From positions 186,001-250,000 of the forward strand of contig BQMF02000229.1 of NCBI GenBank assembly GCA_027922465.2: a stretch of 64,000 nucleotides of DNA, read 5' to 3'. This stretch comes from Turritopsis dohrnii (lineage: Eukaryota; Cnidaria; Hydrozoa; Anthoathecata; Oceaniidae). Position numbers and translations under genes: made by a program. The notes under the pieces are model-generated. The model made no database searches. It was not told where the DNA came from and worked only from the letters and a program-made list of their open reading frames with translations. The first letter of the stretch is position 1, and each line of letters opens with the position of its first letter. Shown piece after piece: positions 27,397 through 56,130 of the stretch.

Positions 27397-28191
27397 TTAA
27401 AAAATAGTACACCAGCTATCTTTCCCTTTTGTGCAAGACTTTTTTGTGCGAAACGGTTGATCGGCACTCATAATTCCATCGTTTGCTCCATTGAATTCGT
27501 AGTATTTGTAGGGTAACTGATAATCGTTGTGATACTTTTTCGAGAGATCGGTTAAATCTTTCTCTTGTATTGCTTCTGTTGGCTGTTTGTTATTCTTTAA
27601 CAACGGGTCAAGATCACTCCCAATAGTATTATCGGTTTTTCCATATCCAGGGCGCAAATTTGATAAGGCGCTATTCAAGCAACAAAGCAAAGAAGGCGTT
27701 TTACCATCCGATTTCGTGATAACATCAATAATTTGTTGTTCATTTTTCCCCTTTTTTTCAACTTCAGTAATTTTGTTTTCACAATTCAGTTCATTCGTTT
27801 GAACCCTTTGAGTATATTCTTTTTGGAAATCGGCATGTTTGCTCAGTTTGTTATAATCGACCCACTGGGTGTCAATTTTGTGAAGATCTCCATTCAAAGA
27901 TAGGACATCAGTTTTCCATTGTCGAAACAACTGATCAAATTGTGCATCAGTAGTGCTTGGAAAACGTTCGCAAACGAAGAAGCGAATTCTTTCAAAAGGG
28001 ATAACATGTGCACGATGAAAATCATTGTCACCAAATGGAGATTTACCAGTTGCTGTTGCCATAAAGTCAAGTCCATTTTTAACACTTGTAGTAAAATGGG
28101 GCCTAGCACACTCTTTATTCAAATCATCTTTGAAATCGGTGGCGGCAATTTTTATATTGATGAACATCAAGAACAACACAATCATCTTCAT
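27397..28191 (-). CDS. Intronless secreted protein, 264 aa, family not recognised
   Basis: A single uninterrupted frame opens with a clear signal peptide (MKMIVLFLMFINIKIAATDF; cleavage probably after IAA or nearby). The mature part is hydrophilic, with cysteines at about positions 29, 73, 135, 169, 170, 253 and 261, and no membrane segment. The stretch NDFHRAHVIPFERI is the only motif-like feature. An R-x-H followed by P recalls the catalytic loop of DNA/RNA non-specific or HNH-like nucleases (DRGH type), but no second active-site motif was identified, so nuclease activity is only a possibility. It lies between a pogo-like MITE and an ORC4 exon on the same strand. If that exon belongs to an intact ORC4 gene, this gene could sit in one of its introns. 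The lack of introns and isolated position allow retro- or horizontal origin, but nothing proves it. Confidence 0.65.
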   Translation of the reverse strand: MKMIVLFLMFINIKIAATDFKDDLNKECARPHFTTSVKNGLDFMATATGKSPFGDNDFHRAHVIPFERIRFFVCERFPSTTDAQFDQLFRQWKTDVLSLNGDLHKIDTQWVDYNKLSKHADFQKEYTQRVQTNELNCENKITEVEKKGKNEQQIIDVITKSDGKTPSLLCCLNSALSNLRPGYGKTDNTIGSDLDPLLKNNKQPTEAIQEKDLTDLSKKYHNDYQLPYKYYEFNGANDGIMSADQPFRTKKSCTKGKDSWCTIF

Positions 28192-28765
28192 ACTTATAAC
28201 AACAAAACTTCTTCAAATAAAATGTCTGCTTCTATAACTTTTATTTGTTGGTTAACCCTCTTTCTATCGATTTGCTGATTATTTTGTTTTCAAAATTACT
28301 TTATTTTATTTTAACAAACACAACAAATGACATACCCATGAACGCATGGTTGGCCATGTCGAAAACAGTTTAACATCTTTAATCAATGCATGACTGAACA
28401 AGTCTACAAACTTATTTTGAAAAAACTTCCCTCCCCCCTCAAAATCAATATTGACATGGTGAAAAACAGCCAAATACAACTCAATATGCCATCAAAGAAG
28501 GGTAGTGTTATCGTAATTGCCTTACCGGTCAAAATTTCGCGGGGGAAAAGTGACACAATTTTATTTAGGTGAGATTAATTGCCCTCGAAAATATAAAAAC
28601 ATAAGCTATAATATAAGCTATAAGCTATGTTGACAAGCTTTAAAGGTTACAGTTTTCATAAAACATTTTTTATGCCGGCTGTTCGTCGCTTAAGAAAGTT
28701 CTGATATTCTAGACAAGATTTCTGGTCAAGGATTCTCCTTATTAAACCCCTTTCATCACACTTAC
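28192..28765. other. Spacer between secreted-protein gene and ORC4 exon
   Basis: AT-rich sequence holding the presumed promoter region of the minus-strand secreted-protein gene. No other exon recognised. Confidence 0.4.
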
Positions 28766-30562: not shown

Positions 30563-31663
30563 TCATCCACGTATTTTTAAGTCCATCCTACCTATTATGG
30601 CTCCTAGGTGGCGTTCTCCCGAGCTGCTAATATTTACTCCAGTACCATTGAAGATTTCTTTCGCTTTTTCGATGTGGTGTTCTTTAACTATTAAGTGAGA
30701 TTTCGACACTTTCGGGTGGTAACCATAGACTGGACCAGTGTGTTTCATCTCATCCCAATACGTTTTCAGACTCGCAATAGTGTCTGCAGCTGTGATGTCA
30801 TCAGCAAAGGCGACTTCTTTGGCATCTAGAGTATTTTCGTCGATCACTTTGAGAAGCTTTTGAAGGAGTGGTGTCATTCCCAAAGCATAGGCGGCCATAG
30901 CAGTTGGATCGCCTTGGGTGGTACCTTCTTTCGACGAAACTTCCATTCCTGCTATGACGAAAAGGCGTGATGGTATATTGTAGCAGTTTTTGATGTAGGT
31001 GTAAACTATTGGACATATGATGGCTATGTTCTGCAGCATCGCTTTTCGATTAATTGAGTTGAATGCATTTTCAGCATCGATTAACAGTACTCCTTCCGTT
31101 GACTCCTGGTTATAAAGATCAGTCATGGCATGCATTGCAGCTTCTGCTCCCGCGTCTTGACCGGCACATACTTGAATAGAACCGGTCAACTGTATTATGT
31201 CAGGTTTAGCTACGGCCATCACTACTTTACTGGCAATTCTTCGAAGCACTTCCCCTACTCCAATCGGTCGTAGACCAGGATGTTTGTTTAGGGGGACTAG
31301 TCTGCAAGCAAGAAAAGCATCAATTGACGTCGACCCTCCTACTACTTTCACTTCCTCGGTAGATAGCTTCTTTATGCACTCTGAGAAGGTCTTACGAAGA
31401 TCGGATGTAGCTTTTCCATATTGAGAAGATGTTAATATATGGCGCCAACCGTCGGCATCTAGACCAGAAGGTCCGGAACCTCCTTTTGTTAGTGACGCAG
31501 CCTTCAGTATAAGGTCTTCGTTAATCGGTTCATACCTAATAGCATGAATTCTTTGAATTGGACCATTAAATATTGGACCTTCTTCAGTTGGCTTGCTCTC
31601 AGGATGTTTCTGTTCTAGTAGCAGGAGTGTTTCATCGTTGAGGGGCAGCATACCGTTTTTCAT
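30563..31663 (-). pseudogene. Reverse transcriptase core of copy 1
   Basis: 366 codons with RT motifs: LVPLNKHPGLRPIGVGEVLR (template grip), LLIDAENAFNSINR (first catalytic Asp), EGTTQGDPTAMAAYALG (QGD motif) and VAFADDITAA (catalytic FADD). The catalytic residues are present, but frames are broken on both sides, so the parent protein is not made. Upstream and downstream pieces are in the enclosing mobile element. Confidence 0.85.
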
Positions 31664-31867
31664 ATTATTTGTTAATAGTTTTATAGCTCCATTGACATCT
31701 TACTTTCTCATCCGTGCTGCAAATTGACCAGAAACCAGCTCAATATCGTTGGTACCAGTTGCTGATTTGAGGGTTGATTGTATGGTTCGTCCTTCTAGGA
31801 ACAGTTCATCAAGATTACCTTCCTTCCATAGATTCAGACGTCTCTCTAGGGCTTTTACGTGATCTTT

Positions 31868-34712: not shown

Positions 34713-37700
34713 ATGGGACAAAAAGGTAGCAGATCCATCTGGGAAGATGAGTTAGGTATAGATGTATACATATTATTCTGTCGGCTTATGTTTTCCCTAT
34801 TTATTTAAATTTTGGCTTGGCACTTGGCGCTTGGTGTATGTTTCAAAAGTGAAAAATATTGCTTTTTTAGAAAGTTATGGGCATTTTTTGTTTTGTTCAA
34901 CATTTTTAAGTTATGACAGCCTTTAATACAATTTGTTATGTACTCCAAAGGTGTTTAATTAAATTAGCGGCTCACTTTGTGAATTTATTAAAGGCTGTCA
35001 TATTGTCGTGTATGTGATGAATAATTATTAGTGATCTACCTTCTTTGAGCTCCATCTTCCCAGCATTTTAAATCTTCATTTTAAACTACTTAGTCTCTTT
35101 GTCAAAACTTCATAATGAAGTAGATCTTTGGCCTTTTTCTTAGCGCTGATCAAATCACATTCTGCATAAAAGCTGCAATTGGCTTACTCTTTTATATTTA
35201 AAAAGGGAATGTTGTTCTTAAAAAAGAAACAGAGATTAATAAAAATTAATTCAAGGAAGACTCCTCATTATAATGCAATAATTGCAAAATAGAAAACAGA
35301 AACAACCAGCAGTACTTTCGTCCACGGACAATGTCTAATCTTAGCAGTGACTCAACTGTCTGAGACATTCAAAAATTGGTTCAGGCCACTGAAATTTTTG
35401 AAAAGCAGTGTTGTGGTGGCCCGACTTGGATAGACGAACTAAGAAGAAGCAAGACGTGTTTTGAAGAGCGTAAGAATAAAATTGTTATCACAAAAAACCG
35501 AGTAGTTTACTTAGCTTGGATTATTCGTAAATGTTATATGTGACGGTTTATGGGAAAAGGATAACAAGCGAAAAAGCGATTTGAATCGCTTAATCGATTA
35601 AGCGATTATTTGAAGCTAAAAAGCGATTCTTTAAAATCGATTTTTAGCTTCAAATAATCGCTTTTCCGATTCTAATGAATCGCTTTTCCGATTCTAAAGG
35701 CTGGTTCTCACTTATCGTCGTAAGGCTTACGTTACGACGATCGTAAGCCTTACGACAGTTTTAAGCCTTACGACGAATATCAAAAAAATTATAATCGTAA
35801 GCGTTATGCAAAATAAGTGTGAACACTTTTTTGACTCAAAATTCGTCGGCGATGACCGTCGTAAGCCTTACGCAGAATATCAAAAAGTTTTGATATTTTA
35901 TCGTAAGGCTTACGACGACATAAGGAGTTTGAATGGACAAAACGTTCGAATATAAAAAAAACATTCGATTACGAAATTCAATTTTGTCAAAGCGCTCGAA
36001 TTTTATTTTTTTAAATCATTGCTTCGGAAAAGTTTGCACGCATTGTACATCATGGGCAAAGCAGAAGACGAACGTATGTCAATTGCAGTACAAAAGTACC
36101 CATGCTTATATGACAAAGCCATACCAGCTTTCCATAATAAGAACGAGAAGCGGAACGCATGGAATGAAGTTGCCAAAGAACTTAATCTAGAAACTGGTAA
36201 GATTTTTTAACTATATTCTATTCAAACATAGTCACTATGATTCAAAGAAAAAAGACCAGGACTGACAAGGCCATAATGTAAGAAATTTTAATGCTTTCTA
36301 AAGTTTGTTTTAAACCGTATTTTTCTTTAGGCCAGGCTGCAAAAGATGCGTTTACAAGTCTACGCACCAAGTATGTGAGACGGAAAAAGGCTTTGAAAGA
36401 TACGAAACGGTCTGGTACCGGAACTGAGAAGGTGGCGAAGGCTGAAAGGGATATGCAAGAGTACAATTTCCTCGGTTGGTTGGACAACTTTGTTTATGAA
36501 CGCAACACAAAATGTAACTTATCTAATGAGGAAGATATGGATGTTGGCGACTTTATTGGAAACATTTCGGAAGGAGCTGCTTCCGAACAATCGGCAGACA
36601 CGACGTTACAAGCCACGGGCTATATTAATGATCCTGAGGTTAATAAGGCAATTTCGCCTACAGTCGAGGAGACAAATAACAATTCACCCAATAACTTCTC
36701 CAATAATCTTGCGAGCACTTCGCAAGTTACTGGACAAGTTAAATGGATAAAAAATAAACGACAGAAAAAAAATGAAGGAACTAATCCTAACCAGGGAAAC
36801 CGAGAAATTTTAGAAAGGCTTACTACTGTGCTTTCAACTCAAGAGCAAGTAGATGATGAAGATGACATATTTGGAAAGTATGTGGCAAGTGAAATAAAGG
36901 CGTTAAACGTGCGTCAAAAGCGAGTCGCCAAGGGTGAGATCGCAAGCCTGCTCAATCGTCTTGCCTTGGAACAATTAGACATTGAAATTTCGTTGTTTGA
37001 CAACTATCAATGAAATCTCTGTTGAACTTTCAGAATATGGTACGTGTTCCTAAGAATATAAAAGTTCGTGTTCTAAATCTTAATTTTATAAAACTGGCCC
37101 ACAGCTGCGCACATGCTCCAATTGCCACGAAAGTACGTTTTCGTTCATGAAGTATTCTTTCAGTCCCTCTCGTTGTGCCAACGCACATTGCTGGTATCGA
37201 GAACCTCTAACATTATTAATTTCTGTCAAGCCCCCTACACCTTCACTTCGAATGATATCTCTCCATGTACCTGCCTTAAAAGAACCATCGGAATTTTCGG
37301 AATCAATAAAGCCAGTCGGACAATAATACGCATTATGTGTTTGTTGCAAGTAATTATGTAAAGTAATAGCTGCAAGGCTGTACCTTTGTGCATTTTCCAC
37401 CTTTGCTTTTATTGGCCGACGGAATATTCTCCAACGAGATGCAAGTATGCCAAATGTATTTTCGATCGTGCGCCGTGCTCTGGACAATCGATAATTAAAA
37501 ACTTTCTGTGATTCAGTGAGGTTGCCAGGATACGGTCTAACAAGCCATGACTTTAGTGGGAAAATCTCGTCCCCAACCAGAAAATAATTTACTGGGTTGT
37601 TCGGACACCCTACTAAAGGTTCAGCAGTTGGTAGATACATTTGATCACTATCAAATCTATTTCCAATTAACGAATTGGCCAAAACTCTGCAATCGTTGTT

Positions 37701-40700
37701 GCTACCATAACTCCCAATATCAACCAGAGTGAATGTATACTTGGCGTCGCAAACTGCCAATAATACCAGACTGAAAAAGCCTTTGTAATTATAGTACAGA
37801 GACCCACTATTTGCAGGGCATTCAATGGCAATGTGCTTTCCATCAATTGCGCCAATACAATGTACCATATCCCAGATATCGAAGAATTCTTTACTGATCT
37901 TCTTCCACTGCGAGACTGTACTTGGTGGTCGTACATAACAGGGCGATAAAATCTCAAATATTTTGTCACACGTTTCGCTTAAAATAGTGCAAATTGCCGA
38001 TCGGCTTATTCTGAAGGAAAAACATAGCGATTGTTGCGAGTCTCCAGATGCAAGAAACCTCAATGTCAAAACTAGTCTTTCAGCGGGAGAAATTGGCTCT
38101 CGCATTCTAGTTGTTGATCGCTGGAGAGATGGTCCAACCAATGAAAGTAAATGTTCCAAGCGTTGTGGTGACATACGAATAAATCTAAAGAAATATTCTG
38201 TATCGAACAGACGCAGTTCTTGCGTTAAAATGTGGTAGTCCCCATATTTTTTTCTGTCTTGGAACATCTTGCGGGTCCAAAACCTTCGTGACTTAGACGT
38301 ATGCTCTTTATCTTCTTCTTCTAACAGCAATGTCAGTATAATCATTGCACAAGCTTTCTTTTTTCTAAGAGATAAAGTCGCCATTCTTAACTTCAACTTC
38401 ACCTCTTTGATTTGAGCTTGCAATGTGTTGGCATCTTTGTTTTTTTTTATATATTTTTTGATATTCGTCGTAAGCCTTAAAACACAGTCTTAAGGCTTAC
38501 GACAGAAATTCCCGTTTTAGTAGTTCTCACTAGCGTAAGGCTTAAAACTGTCGTAAGGCTTACGATCGTCGTAACGTAAGCCTTACGACGATAAGTGAGA
38601 ACCAGCCTTAATGAATCGCTTTTTAGATTCTAATGAATCGCTTTTCCGATTCCAATGAATCGCTTTTCCGATTCTAATGAATCGCTTTTTTGATTCTAAT
38701 GAATCGCTTTTTTGATTCTATATCACTCACTCAAGTGTTGATTAAAATTCTGATAAACATTTTCCCCCAAGGAATAAACCAAAATATCAATCGAACAACT
38801 CAAAAAAGAATTGTAAGGGACGGTTTCTATTGGTAGTAACTTTAAAACAAACTTTTTTTTCTTTTTTATTAAACTGAATAAGAACCATGTTCTGTTATGT
38901 GAACAGCGGTGGAACAACTTAAACATAAAAAAGAATTATAGCAGACGGTTTCTATTTGTAGCAACTTGAGAACAAACTGTTGTTTATTTTATGTCCTAGT
39001 GAATAAGAACCAGGTAACCAGTTCATTATTTAACACGAACGCGTGCTACCTGTAATTATACATCCGTCACATTGATTTTTCAAAATAATGCTGAAGTCGC
39101 GATAACAACAACATCTTTTGAGAGTGTAGACATCTTTATCAATAAAAAAACTTTTTATTTTTATTTGGCAAAATAGCAATTAGATATAATACTCCCAGTT
39201 ATGTTCCAACCTCGAAAACTGGCGCATGGGAATATGAAAAATATAAACATACATAGACGTTGAACGAAACGAAACGTAGGAAGTAGGTGAATCCTACTTT
39301 TCATATTCTAACAAAATACCGTCACTTTATTTTATTTATATCGTTTGTTATCAAAATCCCTTGGACGTTCACGTATATGAAACATGGAATCTACTATGTA
39401 AACAAACAATCTTATTATGGCGATAGCAACAATTTTTAGTTTTTATTTACATTTCCTTTTCGAAAAAGATTTTTTTTTCTCTCTCTTGGCGCACATTTGT
39501 CTTTAAAATATATTTTGCAGCTCATGCAAGTATATTTCTTTTGTTATAAATTCTGGTTATTAATTAAGCTACGTTTACATTAGCGAAAGATCCAATCACA
39601 TTCTTTCCCCAGTATTCGCCCGTTTCTCTCTGCGTTAAATTTTCCAAAAGTGGAAAACAGCCTTTAGTCTAAAAATAAAAATCTATTTCCAGATGGATGG
39701 TGTTTTTGTATCTATTCATATTATTGCGCCAGTTTTATAATGCCGTTTTTCACCATTTGGTTCTTGTTTATAATTTGAGGTTTAATGCTTCTATTTTATT
39801 ATGATACATAGAGAATCTACGATGATGAAAATCTTATTAACTTATTGACTTTATTCTTATAATTAACATCACTTCTGACTTACAAATCGATTTTTTGAAA
39901 TCGCTTTTCCGATTCAAGTGAATCGCTTTTCCGATTCAACCTAATCGCTTTTCCGATTCAAGTGAATCGATTTCGAAATCGCTTTTCCGATTATTTTGAA
40001 TCGATTTTTTGCAGCTAAAAATCGATTTTAAAGAATCGATTTTTCGCTTGTTATCCTTTTCCCATAAACCGTCACATATATTGCTGTTTAAATACCTGAG
40101 GAAGCTTACCACAAAGTTATACGCTTGTGAATGAAGTATTTTTGGAAGTATCTTGAGAAATTATTTATCGCATGTCTCAGAAAATTCTGCAAACACTTCT
40201 TACTACATGTTGAATGAACATGGTTTTTACATGTGACATTTGTAAGAGAGCTTTTGACTCTCTCAAAGGACGTAATATACATTATCTTTATTGCAAGCGA
40301 AAAGAACGTAATTATGTGAGACGTGTCAACTCAGCTAATTGCCCGATTAACATCGCAGAGATACAAGAGGTTGAACAACGTGTGGAAACCGATCTCTTTC
40401 TAGAAACAGACGCGTTACCTCTTATACTAACTGATAAAAACGATGAGAATACATTCAAATCAAAAAACCAAACAGCAAATCTGCCAACATAATGCCAATG
40501 GCAACAAACTTCAATCTAGTACAGTTGTAAATAACATACCCGGGAACGAATTTGTGGACCTCATTGACAGTGCTTATAATGAGACGATTTTCTGGAAGAA
40601 AAACTTATTTATGCTGCCTGCTGGAAAAGCTGCAAAGGCATTTATTCTGGAACTTTCCTTTTGGATTGACCAGTTTAACAGGGACACAAAATTACACCAT

Positions 40701-43436
40701 ATAGCCCTTAAAGTTTTTATGTTAATTCCAAATTTACTACTCCAAAAACCATCCAAGGAGAGTAAAGCGAAGGAACATAACACCAAACTTTCAGAACGAT
40801 TACAGCTATGGAAGGAGGGCAAAATAAACGTTTTGTTGAAAGAAGGCAGAACTATTCAGAAACGCATCACCACAAGTAAAAGACGCACAAAAACTGATAC
40901 GTCAAAACTTTTCGCTAAGCTTATGTTAGAAGGAAAAGTCTTTGCTGCACTCAAGATCCTATCTGACGACGACGAACATGGTGTCCTTCCACCAACCGCC
41001 GAAACCATCACAGAGTTGAAGAAAAAGCACCCTTCCCCTGCCCCTGCTCAGGAAGAGACTCTCTTACAAGGTCCGATTCAAGAAGTGGAAAGATTCTACT
41101 TTGATAACATCAACGCCGATCTTATACGTATAGCAGCACGACAAACAAAAGGTGCTGCCGGACCCTCAAAACTTGATGCAGAACAATTCAAAACAATTCT
41201 CTGTAGTAAGAAATACAAACACGAAGAAGGGCAGGCATTATGTGAGAACATCACTACGATGGCAAAGAAAATTGCAACAACAGTCATTGATCCCTCGTCT
41301 TTAGGAGCCTACGTTGCTTGCAAGCTAATTCCACTCAGCAAAAATCCAGGTATCAGACCCATCGGAATTGGAGAAACTATTCAACGAATAATTGGCAAAG
41401 CTGTTGGTTGGGTTCTAAAAAATGACATTCAGGAAATTGCCGGACCATTGCAAGTGGCAACAGGCCTAGAAAGCGGGGCTGAAGCCGCGATACACGCCAT
41501 GCGACAAATCTTTGAACACGAAGACTGTGATGCCGTTATTCTAGTCGATGCTAGCAATGCATTCAATGCATTGAATAGACAGGTGGCTCTCCATAACATT
41601 CAATATTTTATGTCCTCAATTCGCAACAATATTAATTAATACGTACCGAAATCCAGCACGGCTCATAATCAGTGAAGGGAAAGAAATACTATCACAGGAA
41701 GGTACTACGCAAGGGGACAACTTGGCCATGCCATTTTATGCTCTTAGTACCGTGCTTTTGCAGAACCATTTACGATCAGTGGCTGCGGTTAAGCAGGTAT
41801 GGCTGGCTGATGACGCCACTGGTGCTGGAAAAATCGCTCCTTTAAAGCGTTGGTGGGATATCTTAATTGAAGAAGGACAAAAATGTGGTTATTATGTAAA
41901 CGAAAGCAAGTCGTGGATTATTTCAAAAACTGAGGTGATACAGAAAACTGCAATTGATATCTTTAGTGTCTCTTCGATTAAATTTACAACGTCAGGCAAA
42001 CGTCATCTGGGTGCGTCTATCGGAAGTAAAAAGTTTCGTGATGAATATGTTTCCGAAAAAGTGGACAAATGGTGCAACGAAATGAAAAAGCTATCAACAA
42101 TCGCTTTGACAGAACCACAAGCTGCGTTCGCAGCTTTTACCCATGGGGAAGTACACAAATTTAGCTACTTCATGCGAACTATCGATGGAATGCAGGAATA
42201 TCTAAAACCACTAGATGCAATCATCACTGATATGTTTTTACCATCATTACTTGGAAATACCATCTCCGAGAAGGAAAGAGAACTATTCAAACGATCCATA
42301 AAGAGCGGTGGTCTTGGAATTCCCAAACTAGTTGATAATGCTTCCATCGATTTTGAAACGTCAAAAGTCATCACAGCCCCATTAGTTGCTGCCATTATCG
42401 CCCAAAGTGATGTTACTCCAGATGAGAATGAAGTGAAACGTATTCGGGCAGAGAGGATTACCACAGTTAAGCAGCATCGAAGAGAAGAGGAGATATTAGC
42501 CAACAACGAGCTCAATAAATTAGAATTACGTGCAATTGAACAAAACAGTGAAAAGGGGGCTTCAAGCTGGTTGACTGTGCTGCCACTGAAAGAACAGGGT
42601 TTCAATCTTTCTAAACAAGAATTTCAAGACGCTCTTGCATTGAGGTACAACCAAAATGTGAAGAACCTTCCATCTAAGTGTGCATGTGGGAATGTCTTTG
42701 ATGTAAACCATGCAATGTCATGCAAGAAGGGTGGCTTCATATCCATCAGACATAACAACGTCAGAGACTTTGAAGCCAACCTATTGAAAACAGTATGCAA
42801 CGACGTTGAGATTGAACCAAAACTATTACCTGTAGAAAATGATGAATCAAGGCTAGACATTAGAGCAAGAGGTTTCTGGCGCCCAGGACAATCGGCATTT
42901 TTTGATGTGCGCCTGACGAATACAAATGCCCCGTCTCAAATCAACACTCCTTTAAATGCTATTTACAGTAAACATGAGTCAGAAAAGAAAAGGAAATACA
43001 ACGAACGAGTGTTAAACAATGAACATGGCTCATTCACCCCACTTGTTTTCTCCATTACCGGGGGAATGAGCGAAGAATGTTCAGTTTACCACAAGTTCTT
43101 GGCGGAGAGAGTTGCCCAGAAGACTGGGCAGAGATATGGCCAAGTGATGGCCTGGATAAGATGCAAGTTATCTTTCCTGATCATGAGGTCAACTTTGCTC
43201 TGTCTAAGGGGCTCTCGCTCTGTCAAAATGAATTCTGATGTAACTGAAGATTTTGATCTTGCATGTAGTGATGCCAGGCTCTGATTCATACTCTTGTCGT
43301 ATTAGCAGTCAATAGTAATGTATACATTTTTTACGTATACTTTGTGAAACGTCAGAATCGAGATTCTTTTGAGGCGTATTTTCAGTTTGATTTTGAATTT
43401 TGCTGTCGTACCTTTGAGAGAGCTTTTTCTACTATA

Positions 43437-43468
<32 letters not shown>

Positions 43469-46400
43469 TTTTTCTAACTTATTTAATTTACTTGTAAATA
43501 TTTTAATCTTTTGAATTATAATAAAATGTTTTTATTTTAAAAAGTCGTGTTAAATTGAGTATACTATGAAGAAAGAAAATATCAAGCTTTGCAATTTTGT
43601 TGTTTATCCAGGGTGAAACTTCACAAAAACTTAAAATAGATTCGCAATTTGCGAAGTGTGAGCAATTTGGAAGATGGTAAATTAGGGGTTTCAAATACCT
43701 AGCACTTTAAATACTTTTTCCTTTAATAACACGAAAACAATTGGGAATACCTTGTTATATGCAGTATGGCAGGGCTGGCTAAAGCCCTGCGCAAATTGAG
43801 TGACTCTGTTTGAAAAGCATTTTGATATAAAATAATTTATAAGCACTTTTCTTTATTCTTTAATCTATATTTCATAATCCTTTAGACATCATTGTGCCAT
43901 ATATCCTGGACAAAAACTTAGTTACTGAAAGTATGCCCAAGAAGAAATTATTCTGCACAGAATTATTCGAAGGAAACAACGATAAAGTTGATGAAATATT
44001 TCATAAATACAGTAGCAGAAATGATCATCCTGTTCTTGAATTCATCAGCTATGTATTGGAACGTCAAGGGCAACATTGCGATCTCAAAACAATCAACAGG
44101 ACATTGAAGAAATGCGAGCTTCATCCTTATGTCATTTCTGAAGTTGATATCAATAAATTTCAAGTTCACAAAGGTGCATATTTAGCTCATAATGAATAGC
44201 TTTTTCTTATCATTTGAATCTAGAATGATTACCCTTGGTCTGCTGTGCTTATTTATATTTGATATAAACTGCCCTCTGCTTTTTTGTATTTTTAAAAATT
44301 TATTTCACTTTAAAAGCTTCAAAAATCACTCTTGTATAGGGGGTCACAGGTTTAACCCATCGAAATAAAGCTCAGGTTGCCCTTTTCCTAAAAAAAGTGC
44401 CCTTTGGATGTTCATAATGTGCCCTTTTTCCCTTCCGCCAGACACTGCCCTTCCATTCTAGATTAGACCCTGGCAGCACTAGAGTTATCAGTATTAATTT
44501 TCGTGCAGCTTAATAATCAGCGATGTTTGCACGTATTTATTTTTGTACTGAAGGTATAGGGCATGGATAATAAAGAGAGGAAATAGATACTTGTATTTTT
44601 AGCTGTTATTGTGTATTTTTAAATAGAGCTTGTCTCAAGAGATTGTTTTGTTACACATCTGATCTCCGCGTTCTGATCACGCATCTTAAGAAAAAAATTT
44701 GATTTGTATAGGGGCGCCAAGATTTCAACGCCCAATAGCACATTGCGCTTTGGTTTTTGACCTGTATTACCCCCTGAATTGTCTTCTTTGCTTTAATTTT
44801 TGTCTTATTGTATTGTATTGTATTGTATTTCACAAACACCCTAAAAAACCTTTATAGGCTCAGATGATGACACATATTTGCGAGATAGCAAGATATGCAT
44901 GGAGGTTTTTAATAAAATATGTTCAGAGCTATCATATCTCGAGAGAATCTTAGCACACTTTCTGTTGAAATACCATGAAGTAGAAGAAATTCGTGAAGAT
45001 TTTCAACAAGTCAAAGAAAGGCTTTTTAAAGTGTTAGAAAAATGGCGCACCACCAATCATGGGGCATCATGGAGTTTCCTTAAAAGGTTACTAATCTTTC
45101 TAAGTGAAGAACGGTTGGCAAGAAAGATTGAAGAAGGTAAACATTGTTTTTTAATTTAATTAAAATGTTTTTATTTAAGCACATCTTGATCTGAAGTATA
45201 AAAATCTAAAAAATTATTTTTAAATACTCGTCTAAAACTAATAACAATTGTTTATTCAATCATGGCACCATTCAACCCAGTCTTGAAATAATGAAGTTCC
45301 ACAAAGATAATAAACACCATTTTTCAAGATGCTATTGTACCATTTCCATGATGGATCAGAGCATACACCCTCTAACACTTTAATAAGATCTGACCAATTT
45401 TATAGGCCTCTCTGAATAGCTATCTGGTATAGTGGAAACATGGTCTAAGTGTTCAAATAAATTTTATTTCACTCTTTAGATGTAATATTGCAAAGTCATG
45501 GCAGGTATGTGCCTTATTATTGTTATTATTACTATTTCAATATAAAAGCTACATAAGTTGCCATATAATATAACTATCAAAATTTGTTAGTTATCTGAAA
45601 ACATAGTGTACAATATATATATACATATATAATTTAAGAATAAGGATGTAAAATATTATTCACTTTCTTCTTGCACAAGTCCCGATAAAACTTTTTGTAT
45701 TAGTATTAGAAAAAAATGTTTTTAAATTTTGGTGTGAGGAAATGACTTCTTCCTTTGCAATTTTAACTTTTGATTGTATATATTCCATTCAATATCTTGG
45801 ATAATTATAGCTTGTATCCTCTACTATAGGTCAGTTTCACACAGTGAAAAACAGTTCTCCATAAAAGGTAACAAACCTTTATATCAGTGTCTTCACCTGA
45901 AAGATAGGCTCTAGTATGTTATAATGTTTCTTATATAACAGGCTTTAAATTGTTTAATTTATGTCAAACAATTTAATGTCAAGCATTTTTGCTTTTGGGC
46001 ATTCCCATTAGTATCAGGCTATTGATCAATATAATGTGAAAGTTGCTTCAAATCCATTTAAACAAACCTTAATCATTTTAGTACCAGACGATGAAGAGTA
46101 CAAAGTAACAATTAAAGCAAATCCTGGAATCTTAACCTGCACTGCTTTTGGTGACGTTTATCATAATTTAGATTTTTTCCAAGTTGACACACAAGGAATG
46201 GTGAAAATTGTCACAAGTGGTAAAGTAGAAGGAGCCACGTCAATGACTTTCCACCAATATTCCGAGAAATGCAAGGAGTTCCTTTCAGAACACTTAAGTG
46301 TTAGCTCAACTGATCGTTTTAGATTCCCACCAGCGTACATGTGTGAAAGTAATCTGTCAAATATGGCCACAAAGTTCGAGTTAGAAAACACTTTTGTCAT

Positions 46401-49400
46401 GACCCATTATAATATTGTTGACCATTGCAAGATGCTTAATATTGCTGTTGATGACATTTACAAAGAGCTGCAAATTGATGGTAACTCCATTGGTAATGGC
46501 AATCAGCAGATTCTTGTTTTTGATTACTTAAAATATTGTGTCTATGTCATACATTACAGCGAATCAGACAGTGAAAAAGGAGCCTTACAGGAATTGAAGT
46601 CTGGAGATAACTATTTTCGCTTGTTTGTTTACTTATTCCATCATGTTCTTGGAAAAGACTACTGCTATATCAATGCAGTGGCTGCACCCAAAATAAGAGA
46701 GGAATGTAAAAATGTACTTATCCTAAATAGACATCAACTGGTTGAAAAGGATATCCGAGATACACTTCATGATTTATTTTCATATACACAAAGAAAGAGT
46801 ACGCAAAAGATTAAAGAAGGAACACCAAGTATGCCAACAAACACCAAGGATGCAGTCAGTTATATTTTCAGTTTCCTTGCTACCATGACCATTGGTCCTG
46901 AGGTAATGTTTGGCACAGTAACAGAGAAAATGTTATTGATGTGGCTGACACAAGAGCAGTTTCAAATAGTGTTTAGTGAAAACCTCTGGAGAATTGTCAC
47001 TGGTGGTTATGGTAGCGGGAAGTCTGCAGTTACAAGGTTTCTTGTTGAACATTTGGCAAAAAATACAACAGAACCATTAGATATCTACTTTGTGTTATTT
47101 GACAATGACAGTTTATTCCTGAACAGTTTCGAAGGGTTCGTAAAGAAAGTACTATCATATGGAAGCAAGGTAAATATAGTGTTTGGTAATAGTGAGAAAA
47201 TTGGTAACTTCCTATCTAAAGAATTTGAACAAATTTGTGTAAACCAGAGCAAAGCAATTCCTTTTACTGTGTCGAATATGCTGCTGGCAATGATAGAGAA
47301 AGCAAAATCTTCAGGCAGAAGGTTTCATCTCATTGTTGATGAACTAGATGCTGAAGTCATCAATTCAGTTGAAGCGCATGCACTCAAATCCATCTTCCAA
47401 AACAATGCCGATATGCTAAACACTTCTCACGTATTATTTTCTATTCGATCAATGGAGAAAAGAAGAGCTAATGTAGTTAATGGAATTCGCACTGCTCACG
47501 ATTCATTTGAATTTTATTTTCACTGTGGAATGGAGGTAATGCCGTTATCATTGTCAATGCGCAACACCAAACAGGTGTCAAAAGTCATTGAAATATCTCT
47601 GCAGGGAATCACTTGTCCAAATAGAATATCACAACCATTTTCATCAACTGTGACTAATGACTATGACATTATCGAAAATCCTCCTTCTAAATCAAATAGG
47701 CAGCAGCCAATGACTCAAGCTCCTGACATGTCAAAGTCACACCAACTTACCAATTCTAGACAACAGACAACAGAAAGTAACAGTATACAGGTGGAGCACG
47801 TAAACTCAGATGAGATTGATTTGGTTGCTCTGGAACAAAATGAAAAATTTAAATACTCAGCTGCTGTTATGGAAACAGATTTCAGATTTCATCAGTGTAA
47901 AGAATCAGGACATAAGTTATCTGGTCGGAAACCTGTTCTCGTATTTTTAAATCAACATAAAGAGAAAGACTTACCATTTGTAGATAAATCAGTATTATTA
48001 TCCATTGCATTAAAACATCACTGTTACTGCAATACAGAGAGAAATGAGAAACGAATGATCATATGTAATGATGATTATGAAATGTGTATGGCAGCATTGG
48101 CATCTATAGATAGAAAATATCTGTTATATATACCTGGTTCTTCCTATTATCAAAATTTTGACGAAAAGTCCTTGCAAACTGAAACTTTGATCACTGATTA
48201 TAGAGGATCCAGAGGAATGGAGTGTTCACAAGTTATCATCCTTATCGATCCAAAAGAACACTTTAAGAGACAATTTTTTATCGAGATGGTTGCACGTTCC
48301 ACAGATCATTTGGTGTTGGTTGTTCCATATCCATATGATTACAGTTGTTATAGTGGAAATGAAAAGGAATCGATGGGCACGATTGTAAAGAAGTTATTTG
48401 ACCGTAATGGAAGTTCTTCAGAAGATATTATAGATATCTATTCCTATGCTCTGGACAAATGTAAACATCAAGAGCATATTAGTTTTTACTCTTACTCTGG
48501 TAAAGCAAAGGTGACCACTTTCAAAGTCAATACAAGACATCGAGAACATAAAGAATGTTGTAAGAGAATCCAAAAATCGACAAACTTACCGAACATCTCA
48601 AAAGCAGTGATTAATCCTGGATTCGGGTAAGTTTCTTTGGTAAAATTATGGTTTTGAGGGAATGGGCATGTGTATATACTACTATGATTATGACTGATGG
48701 TTTTAGGTACATGCAACCTGGACCTGTTCAAAATCTTAAAGTGGAAAAGTTATCAGATACTTCAATAGAACTTTCTTGGGTTCATCCAGGAAATTCGTTC
48801 CAAGTGGCAAGCACGAAATCGTCTACTAGCACATCAAAAACCAAGGAGGAATATAAAATTATACATTCACATTTCCATGGCAACAAAGTCCAGTTGTCCG
48901 TGAAAAGGAAACACACATATAAATTTCAAATACGTGCCATTAGTAAACATGGCGGATTACTGTCTACACCGACTGATATACGTTACCCATCAGACAATCT
49001 TGAAAGGTAATTATTGAAAGTAATTCTAAGGAAGTTTTACATAAAGCTGAAATTCCTTATCTCATCATGTTGTTGTCATATAGCCAACCATCGAAGTCAC
49101 CTGTTGAAACTACATCTCCGCACACATCTGCTCCTACAAAAGAACATTTGTCGAGTAATGTTAGAAGGTATACTTGTTTGTTTTATTAAAGTAGCAGAAA
49201 GAAGGCTTCTTCATAAAGTTCTCATTGTTATGTTGCTTTCTTATAGCCAACTCTCAAACGTTGCTACCCAACCTATGTCTATATCACGAACGTCTGCTCC
49301 TACGAAGAAATACCAATCGGGTAGTATTAAAAGGTATACTTGTTTATTTCATTAAAGAAACAGAAAGGAAGGTACACGAAGTTCTCATCGTGATGTTTTT

Positions 49401-51032
49401 TCTTACAGCCGAATCTCATACTTTTCTACTGAAACTACATCATCTCCCCACACACCTGCTCCCATAAAGAAATACCGGCCAGGCAGTGTTCAAAGGTATA
49501 CTTGTTTATTTCATTAAAGAAACAGAAAAGAAATTCCACATAAAGTTCTCATTGTGATGTTGTTTTCTTACAGCCGAATCTTATACTATTCTACTCAAAA
49601 TGCATCTTCTCCGCACACACCTGCTCCTACAAAGGAATATTCGTCGAGTAATATTCGAAGGTATACTTGTTCAATTTAAATGACCAGAAACAAAGGTCTA
49701 CACAAAGTTCTCATTGTGATTTTGTTTTCTTATAGTCAACCATCATCGGCTACTCAAACTGCACCCTCTCAGATCACATCTGCTCCTGCTAGAAAATACT
49801 CTTTTAGCGGTATTAATTTATTTATTCATCTTTTCTTGTAGATTAATTAACAGGTTCCAAGTAATAACTACAGTATAACTTTCTAGAATGAAAGAACCGA
49901 TGAAATTAATATTTCCAATAAAATACCATTAAAATAGTCTTTTTGTTATTGAGAATGCAAATCTTCATATGAAATCATGCCTGATGAGTAAACATAAGTA
50001 AAAGTCGTCTTCATGAAGCCATTTTGGGAGATTACTTATATTCAAAACCCATTTAAAAAATGATTCATCTTTATGGTGCACAAAACTGTCATACCGTCAT
50101 GATTACTCTAGATTCTGGGTGCCGGACCATTGCACTGTTTTGTGTAGAAGATTTGACTTGAAGTTTGAATAGGTCAAGTTTAAGGCTTTCGAAAAAATGT
50201 ACTTTCCCATGTCGCTTCATGATCGTTTGGCCACACTTAACTGTATACCACTAGGGGAGATACACTCCCATGTTGCTTCATGATCGTTTGGCCACACTTA
50301 TCTGTGTACCACTAGGGGAGGTACACACCATAAAACGTCAGTTGTTTTGATTGTTTTATCCCGCGAAATTAACATTGTCATTTCTGATAAATTCTAAAGC
50401 CTCTTTTATTTCGTATTAGCTACGTTTTGTTTGTATTTGTTATAATTATTAATTATTAGTTGTTTAGAATTCCTTTCCATTTAAAATCTAATTTTATTTC
50501 TGTTGTTCTTTACTTATTTTTCATTTATTTTTCATTTATTTTAGATCTTGAGGACCTTATCAAACGTGATGACGTGTCATCCATCATAGACTTCCTCGCG
50601 GTCGATCCATCGATTGTGAAGATGAGGAGAGTTCGTGATGGATCGACACTTTTAATGATAGCTTCGTTTTACAACAGACCATCGATTGTTCGATTATTGC
50701 TCGATGGGGGATCAGAGATAAAAGAGACGAACGGAGATGGACAAACGGCGCTCCATTTTGCTGCATGGAAATCGGCTTTCGATACGCTTTCCATACTCAT
50801 AAATGTGGCACCTCGTCACCTTATTAACCAACAAGATAACTGCTTTGAGTACACACCGCTTCACATTGCATCGCTTGATGGCCCTTATGGATGTGTTGAA
50901 CTCCTCACACGTCACGGAGCAGATCGTCATGTTAAAGATAAACGTGGAAGAACTGCCTATGATGTGGCGTGTTTGAGGAGAGATGACGATGTAACAAAGA
51001 AACGAATTAAGGAACTTCTTCTTCAACGCTAA
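34713..51032 (+). CDS. DEATH / P-loop NTPase / FN3 / ankyrin multidomain protein, 13 exons, 1,474 aa
   Basis: Coding exons: 34713-34755, 43886-44173, 44858-45136, 45480-45504, 45830-45867, 46082-48626, 48707-49006, 49084-49167, 49247-49333, 49409-49495, 49574-49660, 49736-49809 and 50545-51032. They total 4,425 nt with every phase closing and no internal stop. Domains: 1-14 start MGQKGS, a myristoylation-type N-terminus. 15-110 is a helical death-fold-like segment. 111-203 is a DEATH domain (YHEVEEIREDF, LEKWRTT, LARKIEE). About 225-1072 is the large NTPase region with Walker A GGYGSGKSA (about 532-540), Walker B-like HLIVDELDAE (about 640) and SF1-helicase-like YRGSRGMECSQVIILIDP (about 930), then FFIEMVARSTDHLVLVV. 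1073-1172 is FN3. 1173-1312 is an S/T/P-rich linker from five duplicated exons. 1313-1474 holds ankyrin repeats (DGQTALHFAAW, YTPLHIASLDG). By analogy with NLR/STAND proteins it is probably an intracellular innate-immune or cell-death regulator; that role is inferred. The nearest alternative is a Schlafen-like or UvrD-like ATPase with accessory domains. Confidence 0.8.
35343..35437. repeat. Dispersed 95-bp repeat (partner at 60276-60367)
   Basis: Shares ttggttcaggccac, aaatttttgaaaa and gtggtggcccgact with the sequence at 60.28-60.37 kb in the same orientation. Family unknown. Confidence 0.6.
36052..37013 (+). CDS. Harbinger accessory MADF/Myb-like DNA-binding protein, two exons
   Basis: Exons 36052-36196 and 36331-37013 join through gtaaga/tttag (phase 1) to give 275 aa. 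The N-terminal MADF domain spans both exons: AVQKYPCLYDKA, KRNAWNEVAKELNL, then AFTSLRTKYVRRKKALK and YNFLGWLDNFVYE. The middle is acidic and Asn/Ser-rich, and the end is a helical segment ending LEQLDIEISLFD. In PIF/Harbinger elements the partner protein brings the transposase to the nucleus and to the ends. It converges with the transposase gene; the two stops are about 70 bp apart. The ATG at 36052 is chosen because it starts the domain cleanly. It is host-independent and moves with the element. Confidence 0.88.
37086..38384 (-). CDS. PIF/Harbinger transposase (DDE, DDE_Tnp_4 type), 432 aa
   Basis: Single exon on the minus strand with an intact frame. The catalytic triad is visible: D181 in GAIDGKH, D222 in TLVDIGSYGSNND, and E308 in RARRTIENTFGILASRWRIF. 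Upstream is a helix-turn-helix-like part (ISPAERLVLTLRFLASGDS, FRISRSAICTIL) typical of the family. Length is normal. The first ATG (38384) is used; the frame is open about 13 codons further upstream. It would cut and paste elements ending AGGCTGG into TAA/TTA targets. It may also mobilise shorter elements with the same ends, though the other TAA/TTA-flanked elements in this window have different termini. Confidence 0.93.
   Translation of the reverse strand: MATLSLRKKKACAMIILTLLLEEEDKEHTSKSRRFWTRKMFQDRKKYGDYHILTQELRLFDTEYFFRFIRMSPQRLEHLLSLVGPSLQRSTTRMREPISPAERLVLTLRFLASGDSQQSLCFSFRISRSAICTILSETCDKIFEILSPCYVRPPSTVSQWKKISKEFFDIWDMVHCIGAIDGKHIAIECPANSGSLYYNYKGFFSLVLLAVCDAKYTFTLVDIGSYGSNNDCRVLANSLIGNRFDSDQMYLPTAEPLVGCPNNPVNYFLVGDEIFPLKSWLVRPYPGNLTESQKVFNYRLSRARRTIENTFGILASRWRIFRRPIKAKVENAQRYSLAAITLHNYLQQTHNAYYCPTGFIDSENSDGSFKAGTWRDIIRSEGVGGLTEINNVRGSRYQQCALAQREGLKEYFMNENVLSWQLEHVRSCGPVL
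40214..40492 (+). pseudogene. N-terminal zinc-finger part of copy 2
   Basis: Opens MNMVFTCDICKRAFDSLKGR with a C-x2-C and, about 12 residues on, H-x3-C, which suits a nucleic-acid-binding finger. Frame 2 ends at 40492, while the protein continues in frame 0 from about 40450, where an A-rich run (aaaaaacc) is the likely shift site. Confidence 0.65.
40443..41639 (+). pseudogene. Linker and first half of the RT, copy 2
   Basis: Contains SERLQLWKEGKINVLLKEGR, TKGAAGPSKLDAEQFK, LIPLSKNPGIRPIGIGETIQ and LVDASNAFNALNRQ (first catalytic Asp). It ends in a stop at 41637-41639. The remaining RT motifs lie in the next frame, so a 1- or 2-nt indel near 41620-41640 broke one protein into two frames. Confidence 0.8.
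41722..43284 (+). pseudogene. RT second half and endonuclease-like C-terminus, copy 2
   Basis: The first ATG of the frame is at 41722, but in-frame coding starts earlier (RNPARLI, QEGTTQGDNLAM at about 41647-41721). Residues include VWLADDATGAG (catalytic ADD), GYYVNESKSW, then CACGNVFDVNHAMSCKKGGF (CxC-H-C knuckle) and DIRARGFWRPGQSAFFDVRL (restriction-like core candidate). The extreme C-terminus has SFTPLVFSITGG and a WIRCKLSF segment. It is a 520-codon open frame with intact catalytic residues. Confidence 0.82.
43433..43460. repeat. TA dinucleotide microsatellite
   Basis: An uninterrupted (TA)n of about 13 units followed by a T run, just past the 3' end of the retroelement; it may mark that element's tail. 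Confidence 0.85.
49060..49760 (+). repeat. Five tandem copies of one exon-plus-intron unit
   Basis: Exons at 49084, 49247, 49409, 49574 and 49736 repeat with a period near 163 bp. The first four are 84, 87, 87 and 87 nt and each starts and ends in phase 2, so any subset can be skipped without frame loss; the fifth (74 nt) exits in phase 1. Each encodes an S/T/P-rich block with an SAPTKKY- or PAPTKEY-like core ending in R. Introns share gtatacttgt at the donor side and tgttttctta(c/t)ag at the acceptor. Confidence 0.88.
50206..50331. repeat. Direct duplication, unit about 66 bp, in the last intron
   Basis: ttcatgatcgtttggccaca followed by taccactaggggag occurs twice in tandem with few differences. 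It lies in the intron just before the ankyrin exon. Confidence 0.75.
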
Positions 51033-52648: not shown

Positions 52649-54370
52649 CATTCTCGAAGAAACTCTGTTGTACTTCAGGGAGCAGGAGTTTACTTGGAAA
52701 AATATTTCTGACTTGCTCTTAGTATCCTGGTGAAGTGTTGACAGAAAGAAATAACTGGCTTTTCTTATGTAACTGACGAAAATCTGTTGATTTGACCTCC
52801 AATTTTGACAAGATTCGTCCTGCTAGGATGACCTGCACGATTTTAGATTTCGGTGACCAGATAGTTTAAAACGCAGACTATACAACCAACGCAAGGTTAT
52901 TACATAAGTAGTTACTATAAAAATAATGATTTAGAACATTTTAGAAAGTCGATAGTGATCAGCAGATGTCCTTTCGCCTTATTTCAAGATTGAAGTGATC
53001 TTAACAACTTTCTCTTGGTTTGGGGATCATGCTATTTTTGAGACTGGGCTTAATCAGAAATGTTTTTGGTGAGGCGATCTCTTCAGTTTCTCCTTCTTTG
53101 ATTAATGATTATGGTAACTTATCAGCAGATTTAGACGACTTGAGATTTTTAAGGACAGTAGTAAAGACTTAACTGTGCTGTACGTTTCAGAATCTAAACA
53201 CTATACTCTCAAGCTTTGATACTGGAGGTAAACATTTTCCCATGTGTTATTCGAAACGTTTACGGTGGAACTTTGTAACGTACACGACCAATAGTAGTGA
53301 TGGACTATCGTGTACATCGGTGATTGTTGGATCATTTAATAAATAAATTTCTTTCAATTAAAAACATACACTACACAGTGTTTCACGCGTCTAGCGATCA
53401 TCAGATTGTTTGTTGGATCATCATCAAAACTTAAGAAACTCTTATATCTATACCCCCGTAATTCGAAAGTCTCTTATTCGAAAACCTCGTTAATTCGAAA
53501 AGAATTCTCAAATTTATATCTATAATTCGAACTTTTCTATATTTTCACCACATGTGAACGGGCCTTTAAAACATCGAATACAGAACATTCGAATTTCGAA
53601 CGATATGTTTTTCGTTTTGGCTTTTCATTTTTAAAACTGCATAGTGTTTCAGTTAGTGATTTGGAAACAAATTGACAAAGCGACAGCAGTACTATCAAGA
53701 AAAACAACGACCACAGTTGCTGAATCTGCAGCAGAGGAAATACAACTTCGTCGATGAAATTATTTGTACAAGAAAGGGTGCTAATACTACAATATACACA
53801 ATATTGTACAGGTAAGTTCGGAATTATTCTGGGGAAGAATTGCAACAGATAAACTAGTTAATCATAATTGTTCAATTTAATTTTTTCAAGACCCTGACAT
53901 ACTTTGGTATCTGGTTTGGCGAACTATGGTTGGACTACATTACCTAATTGAGTATTTTACTTAATTGAGTTGCGATCGATGCTTTGGTGTACTGAAAGAA
54001 AGGACATCAGTAGAACCGGACTGTGCACTTGGTCCTGTAATCGAGTATTGGGACTCTTATGGTAGAGTGCTAGTACCAAGATATGACTAGGCGTCAATGC
54101 TGTCAAACCACTTAAATTGACAAATATCACCTTTATGCAATCATTTCTGTATTAGTTATAGTTAGATTTCAGCCATACTTATTCTTGGAAGAGTGATAAC
54201 CTAACGAAGAAATATAATTGTGTCCATGCCTCATTTCGCGAACGAAGGTAAAAAATCCGGTAACCGTGTAAATGATAACATTTACATTCCATTTGTATAG
54301 TGTGCAACAACCACAGATTGAGATAAAATAAAAAAGCAAAAGAATGGTACAATTCAATTTGGTATTTTAC
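52649..54370. other. Intergenic with TE traces
   Basis: A stretch at 53455-53540 repeats attcgaaa-type words in both directions, as seen in pogo/Tigger-type ends. No element could be delimited and no gene recognised. Confidence 0.35.
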
Positions 54371-56130
54371 CGATCATGATGAAGAACGCAGCAGGTTGCG
54401 ATCACATACCAGTCTCGTTAGTCAAGTTAGTAGCGGAATACTTGACTTCTCCACTAACGCACACAATTAATGCAGGTATTACAGAGAATAAATTCCATCG
54501 TTCTTGGAAAATTGGAAAAGTTAATCCCATTCCAAAATCGGATAAAGCACTAAAAGCTGATGACTTCCGTCCTGTCACAGTACTTCCTGTTCTTTCCAAA
54601 ATACATGAAAGATTGATTGCGAAACAGATCTGTGATTTCATACCTAAAAATAATATTTATAAATCTACCATGTCTGGATTTAGACAAAACCATTCAACAA
54701 CAACGAGGCCCGGAAAACCCGAGTTATGGAATCGAGTTATAAAGTCGAGTTATGAACTATGACGTCATAATTCGAGTTACTAACTCGAAATTTTTAATTT
54801 TCTATATTCTTTCGAGTTAATTACTCGGAATTGTCACTTTTACAACTCGAGTTATTAACTCGAAATTAAAAATGTCAAATTTTGAAATCGAGTTAATAAC
54901 TCGAAGTTAATTTTTTAAATAAATCAAATCGAGTTACTAACTCGATAGTATTGTATTGCTTTAAAGGAATCGAGTTATTAAAGTTTTCAAAAATTTCTTA
55001 CGATTTATCGTGTGTGTTTGATTTTCAGAACATTTTTCAAATATCGCAAGGGATATTTTCGAAAGTTCACTGGGAATGGTGTGAATTTTTTAAAAAAGGA
55101 AAAGCAGGCCAAATTTGAGGCAAATTTTGAAAATCGTTCAATTTTAATGAAAATTTAATAGTGGAACCAGTTTGAACTGCTGATTTCAATGGTTTCCTAT
55201 CTCACAGATCGCTACCAATTTGTGCAGATCAACGATAAAATGTCTTCAAAAGAAATGATTCACTTTGGTGTGCCCCAAGGTTCCGTTATTGGACCAATTA
55301 TATTCAAAACTTTTACGTGTCTAATCTTCAGGACCATGTTATCGGCAACCACTGTCAATATGCAGATGACACAACAACTTACATCCATTCTAAAGTGACA
55401 TAACTCTCAACCGCCGTTGAAAATATGAATCTTCAAATATCCTCTCTATACAAATGGTCGAAGGACAACAACCTCTTGTTTAACCAGAACAAAACAAAAT
55501 ATATGTTATTGTCATCGGCTAAATTATCTAAATTACATAACCTTGATACACAAATCATTGATATCCATCATGAAGATCATCAGAATCAGTTACTGCTTTC
55601 CTGTTACAAGACACTTAGTGTACTACACAGATTAAAAAACTTTGCACCAATGAATATCCGTAAACACCTGGTTCAGTCTTTGGTATTATCGAAACTCGAT
55701 TATTGCAATGCCCTATTCTGTAACACGATGCAGCATAATCAGAACCGCCTTGATAAACTTTTAAAATCAGCTGCTGGCTTCTCCAATAGCAAATACGCAA
55801 CACCCTCGACGTTATCCAGTTGAAATGGTTGCCAATGGAACATAGAATTAAATACATGTTAAAACTGGACCCCATAAATCGCTATACACACCGAATTTTC
55901 CAGTCTACCTGGCCGTACATGTACGGAGAAAGCAAGCCTAAGACGTACTGCGTCTGACGACGGAAAAAAACTAATTGTAACCAAATCCACAACAACATTT
56001 GAAGGCATTTTCAGTCGTCTATTCAATGAACTTCCATCGAGCTTGAGAGTAGTTGAAAACCATCAAAAATTTTCACACGACTTAAAATCTTTTTATCTAG
56101 ATCTCTCTTTTGCGAAGTATTTGAGAATGC
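54370..56130 (+). mobile_element. Decayed LINE (RT fragment) with an insertion
   Basis: Plus-strand pieces: early RT at 54376-54702 (KNAAGCDHIPVSLVKLVAEY, NPIPKSDK, DDFRPVTVLPVLSKIHERL), QINDKMSSKE..FGVPQGSVIGPIIF at 55220-55310, a palm/thumb part at 55425-55560 (SSLYKWSKDNNLLFNQNKTK), and the C-terminus to about 56110 (FSRLFNELPSSLRV). The central catalytic part is missing around a palindrome-rich insertion. Motifs fit the CR1/Jockey-like group. Dead copy. Confidence 0.8.
54711..55175. mobile_element. Palindrome-array insertion in the LINE
   Basis: About eight copies of words like tcgagttattaactcg, each a near-palindrome, lie between 54715 and 54980. They differ only in the central bases and in flanking A/T runs. 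A less structured A/T-rich part follows to about 55175, where LINE sequence resumes. Confidence 0.6.

Follow-up and report, generated by a model that had tools for sequence, protein, structure and literature searches.

Does a gene of Turritopsis dohrnii that joins a DEATH domain, a P-loop NTPase, an FN3 domain and ankyrin repeats encode a receptor that works like an NLR and, if so, what kind of NTPase serves as its switch? A first-pass annotation of the window (the whole stretch of 64,000 nucleotides that was analysed) had proposed that a death effector, an NTPase and a repeat sensor are combined here in one protein. The analysis supports this combination, and selection on the ankyrin repeats strengthens the case for a sensor. 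The large family to which the gene belongs probably consists of intracellular recognition receptors that work in the manner of NLRs.

Gene model and domain content

Rebuilding the gene from the sequence confirms that it and its 13-exon model are real (Table 1). Specifically, the 13 exons (34713..51032, plus strand) join into 4,425 nt encoding 1,474 aa, with a single, terminal stop and GT/AG borders at all 12 introns, which bears out the annotated claim that the exons close exactly over this length. The frame also closes, over 4,380 nt, when the last exon uses an alternative acceptor at 50590. The start of exon 6 at 46082 lies inside a long open frame that begins at 46012. Exons 8 through 11 share a common donor, GTATAC, and each is followed by a phase 2 intron. 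The interval between the FN3 and ankyrin exons (49084-49809) holds five short similar exons that look as if they had been amplified exon by exon.

Table 1. Exons of the gene and features of its first intron, in window positions
Feature	Position	Strand	Remarks
Exon 1	34713..34755	+	proposed start, MGQKGSRSIWEDEL; open and in phase; least certain exon
Intron 1	34756..43885		9.1 kb; contains a transposase ORF and retroelement-like ORFs
Transposase ORF in intron 1	37086-38489	-	DDE_Tnp_4, 1e-29 (Pfam)
Further ORFs in intron 1	40431-43284	+	no Pfam family; read like a non-LTR retroelement
Exon 2	43886..44173	+	conserved, ~95 aa; relatives upstream of the NTPase exon in 7/20 copies
Exon 3	44858..45136	+	DEATH domain, PF00531; present before the NTPase exon in 10/20 copies
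Exon 4	45480..45504	+	25 nt; kept, with its splice sites, in sister copies L009 and L010
Exon 5	45830..45867	+	38 nt; kept, with its splice sites, in sister copies L009 and L010
Exon 6	46082..48626	+	N-terminal conserved region and P-loop NTPase; SF1-like motifs in second half
Exon 7	48707..49006	+	FN3 domain, fn3 8.1e-6; 3' of the NTPase exon in 20/20 copies
Exons 8-11	49084-49167, 49247-49333, 49409-49495, 49574-49660	+	four like exons, 84-87 nt
Exon 12	49736..49809	+	frame closed by donor at 49810
Exon 13	50545..51032	+	ankyrin repeats and stop; Ank_2 3.3e-18; relatives in 9/20 copies

The domains named in the first-pass annotation fared differently from one another. The FN3 and ankyrin assignments stand on the Pfam matches given in Table 1. 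The DEATH domain of exon 3 is borne out by the family, in which PF00531 matches nine of 11 members (best 3.1e-6), and by a search of the PDB with the exon 3 profile (A2), which reaches the PIDD death domain at 2.5e-4 in rank two, behind a designed repeat protein whose match is confined to 20-residue pieces; the window copy itself falls under the Pfam cutoff (E 0.011; 16.3 versus 22.6 bits). Folding of the DEATH exon by AlphaFold without an alignment gave a mean pLDDT of 60.9. The death-fold segment that had been placed in exon 2 finds no such backing. Exon 2 has no credible Pfam match, no PDB match and no likeness to exon 3, and its reading as a second death domain was rejected. Nor is the proposed myristoylation-type N-terminus corroborated, as a pattern search for an exon 1 with an MG start, run over the 0.3-2.4 kb of sequence preceding exon 2 in seven copies, found no match. 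Finally, because fn3 matches five of 21 members and the uncharacterised DUF7790 (PF25046; best 0.0016) matches ten of 21 FN3 exons (alignment A4; window 48711-49007), the FN3 label is reasonable but not uniform.

A gene family with recurring modules

The exon 6 frame has at least 58 matches in the 436 Mb of the animal's own genome. These correspond to about 52 places, since six of them appear as two matches each. Further matches are possible because 52 of 333 candidates were scored, and some of the 52 places may be haplotypes because several of the fetched pairs are 95-96% alike in aligned DNA. Seven places lie on one contig (C36), all on one strand and 37-157 kb apart. A stop occurs inside three of the 58 matches.

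Twenty copies were taken together with about 4.5 kb of flank on the 5' side of the NTPase exon match and 2.3 kb on the 3' side. At the frequencies given in Table 1, DEATH and exon 2 precede the NTPase exon and FN3 follows it; the flanks were often too short to reveal more ankyrin exons than the nine found. Two of these nine (L010 and L022) were seen with the original flanks, five of six after extension (L014, L015, L018, L024 and L026), and two of two in extended L020 and L025. L011 has no ankyrin exon within its extended flank, and L009 and L019 show none where their sisters L010 and L022 carry one. All five modules lie collinear on one strand in L010, L015, L018, L024 and L026 as well as in the window, although L010 carries its NTPase exon in two separate frames. 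The same modules are thus met in order elsewhere in the genome, more than chance would give.

Two of the copies, L020 and L025 (96.4% alike), are paralogs located on a single contig. Their NTPase cores are 97.5% identical and their DEATH exons 60% identical, and modules seem, from such comparisons, to have been exchanged between copies.

Seven further stretches were chosen by their matches to the Pfam model NPHP3_N. Six are relatives, with identities to the window copy of 25-28% (L037, L038, L039 and L042) or 47-51% (L040 and L041). The seventh, L036 (G000:C410:82800-88800), is different, being a DUF4062, NPHP3_N and WD40 protein. NPHP3_N has 74 matches in the genome, the present family included, and many of the others lie in frames of ~1,130-1,200 aa, which makes the existence of a separate STAND family likely. 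Two alignments were built for the comparisons below: A1 holds the window copy and 18 of the 20 copies, leaving out L010 (two frames) and L013 (a stop), and A6 holds eight of the 19 A1 sequences and the six further relatives. Beyond the animal's own genome, no relative was found at 1e-3 among 5,210 scored candidates of a database taken as mostly microbial.

Selection on the ankyrin repeats

Rates of change set the ankyrin exon apart from the rest of the protein. Among seven copies (L014, L015, L018, L020, L024, L025 and L026), pooled dN/dS is 1.63 for ankyrin versus 0.25-0.41 in the other tested modules, namely 0.26 for exon 2 (four members), 0.41 for DEATH, 0.31 for FN3, and 0.36, 0.25 and 0.25 for three pieces of the NTPase exon. 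Three of the 21 ankyrin pairs lie at or below a dN/dS of 1, and the ankyrin pair formed by the window copy and L010 gives 0.51 on few changes. Single pairs of other modules can also be high where changes are few, as in the C-terminal piece of the NTPase (1.6 for L009-L010; 1.09 for L011-L016) and in FN3 (0.95 for L014-L015).

Three non-overlapping pairs of our own choosing show 122.6 non-synonymous versus 18.4 synonymous changes in ankyrin (P 0.0035). In the same test P is 0.006 for the 20 codons of contact type, whereas the remaining 140 give P 0.13, no significant excess. Codon models point the same way. The positive-selection model (M2a) is favored for ten ankyrin exons (2dlnL 151.7; omega 7.34 at 17% of codons), with the qualification that tests of this kind can be inflated when copies exchange exons, while 2dlnL is 0 for the NTPase core (ten sequences), FN3 (ten) and DEATH (nine). 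We ran these models in a script of our own that kept branch lengths at their M0 values up to a scale.

Where do the selected codons lie? Twenty-five ankyrin codons have a posterior above 0.9, of which 21 fall within the four repeats and four just before the first repeat. Nineteen of the 25 occupy repeat positions 2, 3, 5, 10, 13 or 14, which we take to be the ligand side and to be the positions randomised in DARPins. Repeat positions 5, 13, 3 and 14 have the highest mean entropy, followed by 16, 1, 2 and 10, and the 22 contact-type columns (2, 3, 5, 13, 14 and 33) average 1.84 bits versus 0.57 at the 106 others (permutation p = 1e-5, the floor of the test). Because contact positions vary in many ankyrin families, the non-synonymous excess is the telling result. 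On the evidence of these codons, the ankyrin binding surface is changing under strong positive selection, as would be expected of an intracellular immune-type receptor. The first-pass annotation had drawn the sensor from ankyrin and FN3 together. Its ankyrin part is upheld by this selection, whereas FN3, being conserved, is unlike part of a variable sensor.

The NTPase and the proposed receptor

The family matches animal NLRs in having an N-terminal death-superfamily effector, by way of the DEATH domain found in most members examined, and NLRs generally in having a diversified C-terminal repeat domain, the positively selected ankyrin repeats. The NTPase between them is harder to place. It had been annotated as SF1 rather than NACHT or NB-ARC, on the basis of Walker motifs and helicase-like C-terminal motifs. 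The Walker motifs are secure, all 14 sequences of A6 retaining both Walker A (GxYGxGKS) and Walker B (DE(L/V)D). The Walker B form, DELD or DEVD, lacks the Q that we take to be usual in the SF1 DExx motif. An EQ resembling the SF1 Q motif precedes Walker A in 14 of 14, a motif IV-like MR is likewise present in 14 of 14, and a motif V-like RGxE and a VI-like R are found in all 13 rows that cover them. Look-alikes of SF1 motifs Q, I, II, IV, V and VI thus occur in order. Motif III (GDxxQ) is absent, and R(S/A)(M/L)EK takes its place in 14 of 14, with an invariant R that presumably matches STAND sensor 1. The C-terminal look-alikes are conserved, but the second half of exon 6 searched alone gives neither an SF1 signal nor a significant profile match. 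When UvrD is aligned by itself, its motifs I, IV, V and VI fall on their look-alikes; at default settings its alignment covers 60 columns around Walker A only, and neither RecD nor a pooled four-helicase profile aligns motifs IV-VI as UvrD does.

Comparison of the A1 core with 80 E. coli frames puts RecD, HelD, Rep and UvrD in ranks 1-4. Another SF1 protein, RecB, stands at ranks 25 and 24 of 80 in searches with the core, and in the A6 search second place among the 80 goes to RtcR, an AAA+ protein. Searches of the PDB gave a single match for window exon 6 (E 0.32), which was taken as chance, no match for A1, and three weak matches for A6, with PcrA second at E 1.5. An attempt at a deep SF1 profile gave only close UvrD relatives, and AlphaFold run on the single NTPase exon sequence without an alignment gave a mean pLDDT of 33.6. 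Because of the invariant EQ and motifs V-VI we lean modestly toward SF1. The switch would then be, most likely but by a narrow margin, a degenerate motor of SF1 type that has been given a new role.

The protein might instead be an ordinary divergent STAND NLR of the nephrocystin-3 type with an ankyrin sensor, its resemblance to SF1 being chance or convergence, a reading that we consider somewhat unlikely. NPHP3_N, which we take to be a NACHT-like model, matches 19 of 19 members with the lowest E-value of any Pfam family (best 7.1e-7), lies above its cutoff in the window copy (3.7e-6; 27.7 versus 24.8 bits) and matches six of six further proteins (five family members and the STAND protein L036), whereas NACHT itself stays below its cutoff in L037, L039 and L040 (E 0.02-0.11). 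The first-pass annotation had named a P-loop scoring best as NACHT or NB-ARC as the outcome that would count against SF1; NPHP3_N goes part of the way there and, together with the missing motif III, weakens the SF1 claim. Scores with A6 place L036 (44.8 over 123 columns) over HelD (39.8) and RtcR (39.2), but with A1, RecD (38.6), HelD (35.8), Rep (35.5), UvrD (34.2) and RtcR (32.4) all outscore L036 (31.7), which A1 does not find at E<=10 among seven sequences. MalT, also a STAND protein, takes rank 16 among the 80 frames with A1 and rank 10 with A6. The arginine at the sensor-1-like place speaks for a STAND protein, and the EQ before Walker A speaks against one. If the protein were an antiviral nucleic-acid motor like Schlafen or ZNFX1, its core would act on viral RNA or DNA, its ankyrin repeats would bind viral protein, and DEATH would tether or signal. 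The ordered SF1-like motifs fit such a motor, as does a match of the motif V-VI end of L039 to Viral_helicase1 that falls below cutoff (E 0.01; 16.1 bits versus 21). Without motif III, and with no matches to PF09848 or PF13361 in the genome at E<=0.001 (exons read singly; 18 and 1 candidates scored), we regard it as improbable. L040 alone gives PF09848 at E 0.021, below cutoff. The same protein scores above cutoff for AAA_22 and for ResIII, the latter an SF2-type model.

Our preferred reading is that the gene encodes a recognition receptor resembling NLRs, in which the P-loop switch is atypical. If it works as NLRs do, ankyrin would recognise, the NTPase would switch and DEATH would signal. 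Specifically, the ankyrin surface may bind a fast-changing non-self (or allogeneic) protein, and binding may release the P-loop NTPase so that its nucleotide state changes and the protein oligomerises. The clustered DEATH domains could then attract adaptors through which cell death or inflammation is signalled. The recognition role is supported by the selection on ankyrin, the switching role by Walker motifs kept under purifying selection, and the signalling role by the DEATH domain.

The same anatomy could serve allorecognition or the discrimination of symbionts instead of pathogen defence, which we hold to be rather unlikely; diversifying selection on the binding face fits any self/non-self role, and one report describes ankyrin and TPR repeats of fungal NLRs that evolve likewise in a setting of non-self recognition (PMC4986451). 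It is very improbable that the model joins neighboring genes or dead pieces by chance. Such an error might be suspected from a 9.1 kb intron 1 with mobile elements, from a model drawn from genomic sequence, and from the stops in three of 58 matches and the split NTPase exon of L010, but the frame closes over 13 exons, the module order recurs in other copies, and DEATH, NTPase and FN3 are under purifying selection.

Tentatively, the NLR-like receptor that we favor may represent a new class of intracellular receptor in animals, with a DEATH trigger, a two-lobed switch derived from an SF1 helicase instead of a STAND NTPase, and a natural ankyrin repertoire varied at the positions randomised in DARPins. 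If the receptor reading is right, dozens of genes in one animal genome diversify ankyrin surfaces behind a death-domain trigger, and ligand discovery would become testable through the selected residues identified here. Were the switch SF1-derived, a receptor of NLR type would have arisen in animals from another sort of ATPase.

How does the family compare with known systems? Positively selected ankyrin sites of a fungal NLR are reported to map to the repeat binding interface (PMC4986451), and the ankyrin diversification described there would, if our reading is true, carry over to animals. The fungal ankyrin NLRs resemble the present family in having an NTPase followed by ankyrin repeats with selection at the binding interface. 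They differ in their fungal effectors and their NACHT or NB-ARC domain, whereas here DEATH stands in front, FN3 lies between, and the NTPase exon has SF1-like motifs in its second half. A death-superfamily domain and a P-loop NTPase also occur together in cnidarian NACHT proteins, some of which carry DEATH; in two reports these are defined by NACHT (PMC8260672, PMC3710099), which is below cutoff here, where the variable part is ankyrin. Expansions of death-like domains in marine invertebrates likewise combine such domains with C-terminal ankyrins in many copies but are built around TRADD-N (PMC8195603); for exon 2 the Pfam search gave no fitting family. The SF1 helicases UvrD, Rep, HelD and RecD share the order of motif look-alikes and differ in that the present family has no motif III and a second half without a significant match. 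A literature search judged by titles and the opening lines of abstracts, with subscription papers mostly outside its scope, met no announcement of this architecture, and we make no claim that it is unpublished.

Other parts of the window carry frames of their own. Reverse transcriptase frames lie on the minus strand at 8593-9234 and 30563-31699 (RVT_1 E 5e-26 and 4.7e-11), and another on the plus strand at 54322-54762 falls below cutoff (RVT_1 E 1.3e-4). A 271-aa frame at 27397-28212 (minus strand) has a signal-peptide-like start and the motif DFHRAHVIPFERI, with no Pfam match at 0.01. Near the beginning of the window, a plus-strand frame at 2909-3433 matches the Mab-21 nucleotidyltransferase family (PF03281, E 4.5e-6) and is possibly part of a cGAS-like gene.
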